DNA of 64,000 nucleotides. Origin: Cladochytrium replicatum. Taxonomy: Eukaryota; Chytridiomycota; Chytridiomycetes; Cladochytriales; Cladochytriaceae. A model generated the notes under the pieces. It was not told where the DNA came from, did not search any database, and saw only the letters and a program-made list of their open reading frames with translations. A program made the position numbers and the translations under genes. Each line of letters starts with the position of its first letter. Position 1 is the stretch's first letter. The stretch spans positions 186,001 to 250,000 of the forward strand of contig JAHLKD010000054.1 in assembly GCA_025526935.1 (NCBI GenBank), given 5' to 3'. Positions 35,687 through 38,647 of this stretch are shown piece by piece.

Positions 35687-38647
35687 ATGACCACTACAAA
35701 CACCAACGTGTGGAGCTGCTCGAAGCACCGCTCTGCTCATCATGCCGTTTTCGTCTCCTACAGACAGAATGGCAGTGACTCTTTGCTCGCAGAGCTTTTC
35801 TGTGCAGAAATGGAAGCCGATTTGACCAAGCGTTACCACCCCGCCTCTCTCCCCGTCTTTCTGGATAAGCGCTGCCTTCCCATCGGTGGAGACTGGTCCG
35901 AAGGATTCATCAACGGTTTGCAGAAGAGCAGAGTTATCGTCTACCTTTTGAGCAAGGAGTCGATCAGAACCATGTTGTCAAAATTGGAAAAGGGGCAGGT
36001 AAGCACGTATATGTCCTGCGATTCTCAATACGAGCTCATTTGTGCCGAAATCATTGCAGCGCGATAATGTTTTGGTTGAGATCGAGGAAGGGCTTCAACT
36101 AAAATCCATTGCGGATCGTGCAACCACACTGATTCCAGTCCTTATCGGAAATTACCACCATTCACACGCAAACCAGATGGAAAAGCTGGTTCCGTTCGCC
36201 GAATTTGATGAGTCGACTTTGGAACATTCGAAATCCGGCTTGAAAGTGAAAGAAACCATGGCGAATCTCTTTAAGTTTCAAGGCTTGCACCTGGATCCGA
36301 AGAATGTCGCAGCATCCGTTAATGTCATCATCGAAGAGTTGGGTCGAATCGAAGGTATTTAAAATTTTGTTCGACGCCGTGAGATTAACACCAACTCGCT
36401 GTGATTCTTCCAGTTCCCCAATCATTTTGTTCTTGGGCAACGCCTACGCAAACACAAACTGCCCTCGGTTCGCAGCATCAGTTGCATTCCCGCCCAAACC
36501 CAACGATTTACATCAACCGTGACGACATTCTTTCGCAGATTGACACAACCCTTCGATCCAATGCATCTACTTCATCCACCGCGGTATTAAAAGGCGTTGG
36601 CGGTTCCGGAAAGACATTTATTGCCACGAAATATGGGTACCAATGTGTCGATCGTGGATATCAGGTTGCATGGCTGAAAGCGGACTCGGAAGAAGCAGTC
36701 AAGGAGTCATACATTGCATTCGCACAGTGGATTCTTCGTGACTACACTATCTCCCAGCTCGCTTGCTTCACACTCTCAAATGTAATGACCATGGTCGAGA
36801 GTACTTCCGCAAAGTACCCAACTACCAAAAAACTAATGATCTTTGACAACATTGAAGATTACCAGCATATTCAAGAGATCATTCGTGCTCACCCAAATGC
36901 GCAGTTTTTATTGACCACGCGAAATCCTTTGTACCGTGATGGTTTGCTGATGCCATTCATCAAAGTTGACCTACCAGACAGTTCACGAGCAGAGCAGTTT
37001 GTGGTCCAGTCTATTCCAACACTTGACTTGGTTCATGCTACAACTATTGTTCAGCAATGTGAGCAGCTGCCTCTGAGGCTAGAGATCACAGTGAAATATC
37101 TGCAGCAGATTTTTAACAATGTCAATAACTATTCAGTAAGGAAAAGAAAAGCAGGACCAGAAGTAGCGATCACAGCAACTGCAGTGATAGCTGGAAAAGC
37201 AAACAAAGAACATAGCCAGGAATCAATAGATTATCAGAAACCTATAGATTATTCTAAATTTGTAACAAAGATCATCAATGACTACACAAGTGATGTTCAG
37301 AATGCTAAAGTAGCATGTAATGAGGATAGTCATCCAGAAATTGTGGTTTCGCTGAACTACTTAATGGATCAAAACAAGAATGCATTTGAGATGTTTCAGC
37401 TCTGCGCTTATCTTGACCCTGATGCTGTCTCCTTAGATATTATTGTGGACTTCCAGAAACGTCAATCAGCACAGTTTTGGGCACCTATACTCCATAATTT
37501 CTCCAAGAAAGTTCAGAAAAATTTAAGTGAAAGCGTCCCACTCCTCAAAGAGCTTGGACTGGTAAAAGAGCTTGGTACTGTTAGCAATTCAGTTATAGTG
37601 TGTATCCACAGATGTGTTCAAGCTCAGCTTAAGGCCTCGATTAAAGATGAAAATTCAAAATCAATGCTAGCAAAAGAGTTTTATGCTCAAAAGATGAGCC
37701 AAGTAAGGCATGCTGCCATGCAGTACGAACTTGGTATTCAAAACTTCATGAAAGCAAGGCTGGCAGAACGAGATGGCACACCAGGAACAGTATCATATCA
37801 GTCTGCCTTACAATACTTTCAAAAAGCTGCTGATATTGGCCATACACAGAGCTGTCTTGCATTATATATAATTTTTGAGTTTGGATTTGGAGTGGGAGTT
37901 GATAAAGCCATAAGCAGTCACTGGTGCTCCAAGGCTGGCTTATCCAAAGCAGAAGTAAATTGTGTAAAATTTGATGGTAAAAGCTTGGAGCTTCTTGGAA
38001 AGAAAACAAGTAAACTCAACTCTTTAGTCAATTTCAGTGCAAGAGTTTTTGATAAGGTCGATTCAAGTGCTGATTCATCCGAGTGGACATATGTTTCTTC
38101 TGCACTTTCGCAAGGTTCAATTATTCGAAATCTTGACTTGCGTGGAATAAGTGTTGGGATAAGCGGTGCAAAAGTTATTGCAAAATATTTAGATGATACT
38201 TCTACTCTTCAATGTCTCTATATGGAGCTTAAAAATATTGGAGATGAAGGTGCACGTATGCTCGCCACTGCTCTCAGGCGAAACTCTACACTGCAGTTCC
38301 TAACTCTTTCAAACAACTACTTTATCGGAATTGAAGGCGGAAGGGCACTTGCAAACGCTCTTGCACACAACACTACTCTCAAACATTTCAACCTCTTGAA
38401 CAGCAATATTGCAGATAAAGGAGCTTGTGCACTTGCCGCAGCTCTTGATCAGAACTGTACTCTTCAACACCTCAATCTCTGGAAAAACAATATTGGAGAT
38501 GTTGGTGCAATTGCACTTGCAACAGCTCTCGAGCGCAACTCAATGCTTCAATATCTCAATCTTGAAAGCAACAATATTGGAATTGAAGGTAGACAGACAA
38601 TTGAGTGGTTGCGCCAGAAGCGACCATTACTTGACGTTGTGTTATGA
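35687..38647 (+). CDS. TIR / NB-ARC / Sel1-like / LRR protein (TNL-type NLR)
   Basis: Exons 35687-35998, 36060-36354 and 36414-38647 (introns GTAAGC...TTGCAG and GTATTT...TTCCAG) sum to 947 codons. Residues about 19-160 are a TIR domain: HHAVFVSYRQNG (first strand), PVFLDKRCLPIGGDW (BB-loop region), VIVYLLSKES, and, after splicing, DNVLVEIEEGL carrying the likely catalytic Glu (about residue 111), then LIPVLIG. Residues about 235-450 are NB-ARC-like: P-loop GVGGSGKT (263-270), Walker B LMIFDNI (about 343), sensor LLTTRNP (about 370). About 655-715 resembles a Sel1/TPR repeat (ALQYFQKAADIGHTQSCLAL). About 770-940 are five to six RI-type LRRs of 28 residues (NIGD.GA.ALA.AL..N..L..L.L). Expected role: intracellular sensor in which LRR ligand binding drives NB-ARC oligomerisation and TIR NAD+ cleavage; that is inference from plant, animal and bacterial relatives. 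Confidence 0.9.
38180..38625 (+). repeat. 84-bp LRR-coding tandem repeats
   Basis: The LRR part of the NLR is built from diverged 84-bp units (28 codons), with recurring blocks such as AACAATATTGGAGATGTTGG, GCACTTGC(A)AC(A/C)GCTCT and TCTTCAA(C/T)A(C/T)CTCAATCT. The last three units are the most alike at DNA level, which suggests recent unit duplication or exchange. Confidence 0.8.

Follow-up and report, generated by a model that had tools for sequence, protein, structure and literature searches.

Animal NLRs are built around a NACHT ATPase and mostly carry CARD or PYD effectors. In plant TNLs such as RPP1, ROQ1 and WRR4A, a TIR domain, an NB part and leucine-rich repeats (LRRs) follow one another in one polypeptide. 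Fungal NLRs have been described as devoid of LRRs. As far as the accessible portions of these sources go, Soanes and Talbot (2010) looked without success for a fungal protein combining NB-ARC with LRR (PMC2939053), Dyrka (2014) reported 5,616 candidates in 198 genomes, none with LRR, and chytrids without NLR (PMC4986451), a 2017 review depicts LRRs as missing from fungal NLRs (PMC5658179), and a 2025 review repeats their absence (PMC12881547). Chytridiomycota NLRs with TIR were mentioned in 2022 (PMC9815663, accessible part). A 2025 scan of 122 proteomes counts LRR as a canonical C-terminal domain and records NLRs in Chytridiomycota species; its accessible text names no LRR case, and its supplementary tables may list one (PMC12258605). 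A paper on a fungal TIR-NB-LRR protein was not found in the literature searched, the scope of which excluded most subscription papers and preprints.

The gene studied here lies in a 64,000-nt stretch of the genome of the chytrid Cladochytrium replicatum, an early-diverging fungus as the preliminary description had surmised (contig C54, positions 186001-250000; hereafter the window) within an assembly of 50.5 Mb in 198 contigs. It has an N-terminal effector, a STAND NTPase and C-terminal superstructure-forming repeats, as in the broad definition of NLRs, and departs from the described fungal pattern (HET, HeLo, PNP and others combined with ANK, WD or TPR, without LRR) in having an LRR_6 array. 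The preliminary description had set the pairing of TIR and LRR against the effectors and sensors usual in fungi. It is the LRR that contradicts the accessible literature; TIR in Chytridiomycota NLRs was already in print (PMC9815663).

The gene shares with plant TNLs the order TIR-NB-LRR in one polypeptide. It differs from them in its ribonuclease-inhibitor (RI) type LRRs, in the Sel1-like spacer before the LRRs, which had already been pointed out as unlike TNLs, and in an NB that falls below the Pfam NB-ARC cut-off. The C-JID domain was not found among the 16 Pfam families matched in the window protein, and a genome search for EDS1_EP gave 0 matches, the control genomes being equally silent. 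With animal NLRs (NOD2, NLRX1, NLRP) the likeness is in the 28-residue RI-type repeats, and the difference in the NB-ARC-like ATPase and TIR that stand here in place of NACHT and, mostly, CARD/PYD. The Podospora HNWD proteins (HET-NACHT-WD40) resemble it in having a TIR-related effector, a STAND switch and within-gene repeat likeness, and differ in having WD40 and not LRR, NACHT and not an NB-ARC-like part, and HET and not TIR (PMC12881547, accessible part). Chytrid TIR-NB-ARC-TPR proteins are represented by P0004-P0010 of C. replicatum, several of them known from short records that stop ahead of the TPRs, P0013 of Polychytrium aggregatum and P0012 (partial) of Quaeritorhiza haematococci. They are alike in TIR identity, in the NB profile match and in a DUF7779 match below cut-off, and differ in their canonical NB-ARC above the Pfam cut-off and their TPR sensors. 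The special plant-likeness first proposed for the gene is not upheld, as its LRRs are of the ribonuclease-inhibitor type, its NB is below the NB-ARC cut-off and its TIR is kin to chytrid proteins. The most suitable reading is that of a protein assembled independently in a fungus, and not that of a TNL. As a separate observation, P0004-P0008 of C. replicatum carry about 110 additional amino acids N-terminal to the TIR, which look ubiquitin-like or Crinkler-like by eye.

The features of the gene are collected in Table 1. Joined, the three exons amount to 2841 nt, or 947 codons, with the sole stop at the end. GT..AG introns are present at homologous places in three paralogs, B, D and E. The two ordinary introns and the closed 947-codon frame of the preliminary description were confirmed, as was the occurrence of TIR, NB and LRR in a single fungal gene. 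Eight loci, A to H, were read. TIR, NB, Sel1 and LRR are all in open frames in A (the window copy), B and E; D has a frame break inside the NB, F has many stops, and G and H are fragments. Loci B to G are clustered in some 100 kb of contig C3, in either orientation, with B at C3:175.1-179.3 kb and E at C3:106.3-109.8 kb; H lies on C42. A genome search with the public protein P0002 yielded 50 matches at exon level, some of them to the LRR alone; eight is a lower bound for the family size, with a fragment on C92 and further genomic TIR-exon matches outside these loci.

Table 1. Features of the TIR-NB-Sel1-LRR gene (positions in the window)
Feature	Position	Strand	Basis or remark
Whole gene, start to stop codon	35687..38647	+	3 exons, 946 aa; homologous introns in paralogs B, D, E
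Exon 1, initial portion of TIR domain	35687..35998	+	spliced reading frame
TIR domain, residues 21-135	35747..36152	+	split by intron 1
Intron 1	35999..36059	+	61 nt, GT..AG, phase 0
Exon 2, remainder of TIR and TIR-NB linker	36060..36354	+	spliced reading frame
Glu111, candidate TIR NADase catalytic glutamate	36078..36080	+	alignments A1, A5
Intron 2	36355..36413	+	59 nt, GT..AG
Exon 3: NB, winged-helix region, Sel1-like, LRR	36414..38647	+	reading frame
NB-ARC-type STAND ATPase, residues about 236-440	36512..37126	+	motif alignment, predicted model, superposition
Walker A / P-loop GVGGSGKT	36593..36616	+	G268, K269 invariant in alignment A5
Walker B LMIFDNI	36833..36853	+	aligns with LLILDNV of canonical NB-ARC
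DUF7779 / winged-helix-like region, MHD-like His601 (CIHRCVQ)	37373..37651	+	DUF7779 below cut-off; His column by eye
Sel1-like helical repeat stretch	37727..37951	+	Pfam and PDB profile matches
Stretch spliced out in public model P0001, most likely coding	37977..38037	+	three paralogs read through; corresponding positions without GT or AG
Six RI-type leucine-rich repeats, 28-29 residues each (counted by eye)	38123..38644	+	LRR_6, periodicity, PDB

The Pfam model TIR_2 scored 30.4 bits on the TIR part alone (cut-off 28) and 27.5 bits, just under the cut-off, on the full protein, in agreement with the initial assignment of the N-terminus. Glu111, a candidate counterpart of the catalytic Glu in SARM1 and in the TIRs of plants, is invariant in all six TIRs of alignment A1 and conserved in at least 90% of alignment A5, and falls inside helix 107-119 of the predicted model. 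The window gene, with its intron-split TIR, was absent from the matches that PF01582, PF13676 and PF00931 gave at exon level in the genome. Used as a profile against the PDB, the TIR alignment matched nothing convincingly by sequence, an unrelated ribosomal protein (E 0.2) preceding TIR proteins (E 0.7 and 0.89).

The assignment of the central part as an NB-ARC-type ATPase holds at the level of motifs and fold and not at that of the Pfam score. The motif columns of alignment A5 and the fold give the parts of a STAND NTPase (P-loop, Walker B, TTR/sensor Arg, GLPL-like and winged-helix). The Pfam NB-ARC model gave 12 and 13.8 bits on the window protein, under its cut-off of 23.5; the best E among three family members was 6.3e-4, and of the 14 NB-ARC matches in the genome none fell within the LRR family. 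NACHT matched weakly (E 0.098) in one of three family members, the window copy being without a match. The structure prediction proposed in the preliminary description bore out the assignment. The predicted model superposes on the NB-ARC structures of NRC, Apaf-1 and CED-4 as well as on RPP1 and a MAL TIR, the comparisons covering mainly residues 208-551 and hardly the C-terminal part; in the model, the TIR and NB parts resemble known TIR and NB-ARC folds. The winged-helix part is mostly at pLDDT < 50, and DUF7779 matches the window protein at E 0.0057 and 0.0024, below cut-off, as it also does in the TPR group. A single-sequence prediction of the public protein P0001 was discarded (mean pLDDT 32.5). 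The Sel1-like segment noticed at the outset is weak in the window copy (E 0.012 and 0.0028) and clearer in family members (best 6.8e-6), and a Sel1 profile of three of them matched PDB Sel1 proteins at 8.1e-14.

Whether the LRRs belong to the protein depends on the stretch 37977-38037. The public protein P0001 (760 aa) is identical to the product of the window gene through residue 723, after which a third intron is modelled and the LRRs are missing. If this annotation were right for the window copy, the product would be a TIR-NB-Sel1 protein and the LRR stretch a relic. The GT..AG ends of the stretch and its length of 61 nt, resembling introns 1 and 2, would agree with this. At its counterpart in paralogs B, D and E on contig C3, however, the sequence is coding in one frame, with no GT or AG by eye. 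Over residues 724-745, 7-9 of 20 aligned positions are shared with these paralogs, with pN 0.32-0.44 against pS 0.77-0.95. B, the gene of the public protein P0002, has an uninterrupted frame from the NB through the end of the LRRs, and model P0002 likewise omits short stretches that this frame reads through. Downstream, the LRR frame of the window copy stays open for about 200 codons with the repeat consensus kept. When A was compared region by region with B, D and E, pN (0.15-0.40) was below pS (0.48-0.86) in all 22 comparisons, the LRR part having pN 0.30-0.32 and pS 0.59-0.67. A spliced stretch with a relic LRR is thus distinctly unlikely. Because three paralogs read through and pN is below pS, the LRRs are taken as part of the window gene's protein, to which they most likely belong by these comparisons; a truncated isoform without LRRs alongside the full-length protein is a possibility.

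On the window protein, LRR_6 gave E 3.1e-16, and the DNA has an 84-nt periodicity. Among the LRR models only LRR_6 exceeded its cut-off; LRR_8 scored 13.9 where 27 was required. NOD2 (7e-28) and LRRC34 lead the PDB matches of the LRR part, ribonuclease inhibitor and NLRX1 are in the best 20, and a plant NLR is absent among the best 60 of 116. The repeats are therefore of the RI type, as originally described. The repeats recognised by a pattern search numbered 4 in A, where 6 were counted by eye, 18 in each of B and C, 12 in D and 11 in E. Mean DNA identity among repeats is 83-90% within B, D or E, and 67% for the 2 counted in A. Variation was examined by column in repeats with a successor at exactly 28 residues (52 in five genes, 37 without the near-copy C); A contributes 2, and repeats at spacings of 29, 45 or 57 and array-final repeats were left out. 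Across the set of 37, pN was 0.64 and pS 0.35 at columns 7 and 8 of the 28-residue unit (ratio 1.83, bootstrap 1.24-3.11), the column set 5, 7, 8 and 10 had pN/pS 1.35 (0.94-2.47), and the remaining 24 columns 0.56 (0.46-0.71). In RI-type repeats, these positions come after the LxxLxL strand, on the side turned towards the ligand. The data are suggestive of hypervariability at these two positions, and of nothing firmer, as the columns were chosen after their entropies had been viewed and the repeats are non-independent.

The state of the paralogs raises the question of whether the family is decaying without current function, the window copy being among the last open ones: all parts are open in three of the eight loci read, and C, D, F, G and H are broken or partial. 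We consider this very unlikely. A compared with B and E has pN below pS in every region, and the LRR columns differ from one another in behaviour. NLR clusters undergo birth and death, in which numerous dead copies are normal. One of the partial loci, paralog C (C3:151210-153736), shares 97-98% identity with P0002 in its TIR exons, which are almost directly joined to an LRR frame, the NB being lost; the locus may encode a TIR-LRR protein or may be a pseudogene.

The TIR of the family is 35-38% identical to those of the C. replicatum TIR-NB-ARC-TPR proteins over 192-200 residues (E 1e-33 to 1e-36) and 32% identical over 125 residues to that of the Polychytrium aggregatum protein (E 5e-12). Of five other TIR loci of the genome, two matched the family TIR at E 0.03 and 0.18 and three were unreported. 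In the TIR tree the fork uniting the LRR and TPR groups has an SH-aLRT of 88, the interior being open. The NB-ARC phylogeny proposed in the preliminary description was computed and did not place the LRR group, one branch being 3.69 changes per column long (tree without plant or animal NB-ARC; P0011 and P0029 left out by the P-loop pattern, P0022 and P0028 cut at a looser match). It was set aside as proof of NB ancestry, and descent of the NB from the NB-ARC of the TPR group is without tree support because of this branch. The TIR intron is also weakened as an argument for common descent; its position in the TPR type agrees to within a few bases, but the phase is 2 there and 0 here. RI-type LRR stretches of 37-39% identity occur elsewhere in the genome (C103, C1, C7, C124). 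In a database of 5.8 billion proteins, with about 8,000 word-sharing candidates scored per search, the TIR-NB-LRR kind was not found outside C. replicatum; the matches were P0001, P0002 and a marginal NB-ARC-TPR protein, P0003 (E 0.026). The TIR-NB-ARC of copy I, a TPR-type gene, matched 36 proteins at E 10 or better, with C. replicatum, Quaeritorhiza and Polychytrium first; its weaker NB-ARC-TPR matches included Actinomadura and Penicillium, and two had TIR_2.

Third-position GC in the window gene is 0.58 in TIR and linker, 0.38 in NB/Sel1 and 0.32 in the LRR, and B and E are alike (range 0.58-0.65 for TIR, 0.30-0.32 for LRR). It declines less along gene I (0.41, 0.39, 0.35, 0.32), and since a weaker fall occurs there too, the drop from TIR to NB/LRR gives no more than a hint of a mosaic origin. 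The disparity between TIR and LRR parts would also suit a gene acquired whole from a plant, animal or bacterium, or a contamination, as would the TNL-like order and the LRRs resembling those of animal NLRs. Such a source is nevertheless extremely improbable in view of the spliceosomal-type introns, the paralogs on other contigs, a TIR nearest to chytrid proteins among those compared, and the failure to find the TIR-NB-LRR kind in another organism among the candidates scored. The neighbours are likewise ordinary. Eight of 10 neighbouring frames scanned match common families (F-box, Zn2-Cys6, FMN reductase, Nipped-B, GH3, helicase, DUF2196 and, below cut-off, a C2H2-type finger); Rfam at gathering thresholds matched nothing anywhere in the window.

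These comparisons are most simply read as assembly within a fungus out of parts already present, and domain shuffling, one of the origins first suggested, is likely. We lean slightly towards a third independent origin of NB-LRR proteins, in which RI-type LRRs would have been joined to a TIR-STAND part of the chytrid TIR-NB-ARC-TPR kind and the family would behave as plant resistance-gene clusters do, with copies arising and dying and an LRR recognition face that diversifies. LRR-bearing chytrid TIR receptors would offer a further lineage for testing repeated NB-LRR assembly from ready-made parts. Surveys that use annotated proteins and Pfam cut-offs could miss the family, because the automated gene models drop LRRs and none of the genome's NB-ARC matches falls within it.

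The family probably encodes a small set of NLR-type (STAND) receptors of the order TIR, NB-ARC-like, winged helix, Sel1-like and RI-type LRR. Beyond domain identity, the steps are proposed from the way in which TNLs and further STAND receptors act. The LRR array would be the sensor, and contact with a putative ligand would release the ADP-bound NB switch; binding of ATP would lead to oligomerisation into a ring, in which the clustered TIR domains may cleave NAD+ via Glu111 or serve as a scaffold effector. The cleavage of NAD+ would lead to defensive or incompatibility cell death. Expression of the gene and an immune or allorecognition role are presumed. Some STAND ATPases serve as transcriptional and developmental regulators, and the proteins might accordingly act in development, signalling or metabolism and not as defence sensors. 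This is unlikely in the light of the TIR effector, the suggested hypervariable LRR positions and the clustered multicopy organisation, and of a genome rich in TIR, HET, NACHT and NB-ARC matches. At E <= 0.001 the exon-level matches comprise 71 TIR_2 (62 over cut-off), 14 NB-ARC, 19 HET and 10 NACHT (8 over cut-off), the NACHT search having also matched in 11 of 14 control genomes, over cut-off in 3. By these counts, a defence receptor would be one member of a large defence-type repertoire. With this TIR-NB-LRR family, chytrid immunity would become directly testable.

Many of the TIR_2 matches are distant from NB-ARC loci (C61, C62, C63, C80, C99). At one locus (L036; C80:11501-20000, minus strand) a 2327-aa frame, with a long N run inside, has TIR, NACHT and a long near-identical array that is WD40 by eye; this TIR-NACHT-WD40 order is like that of Podospora HNWD, but with TIR replacing HET. 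A second TIR-NACHT-WD40-like locus (L037; C63:35001-40000) has TIR_2 and NACHT matches near each other, and in its frame of 910 aa the repeats look WD40-like by eye.
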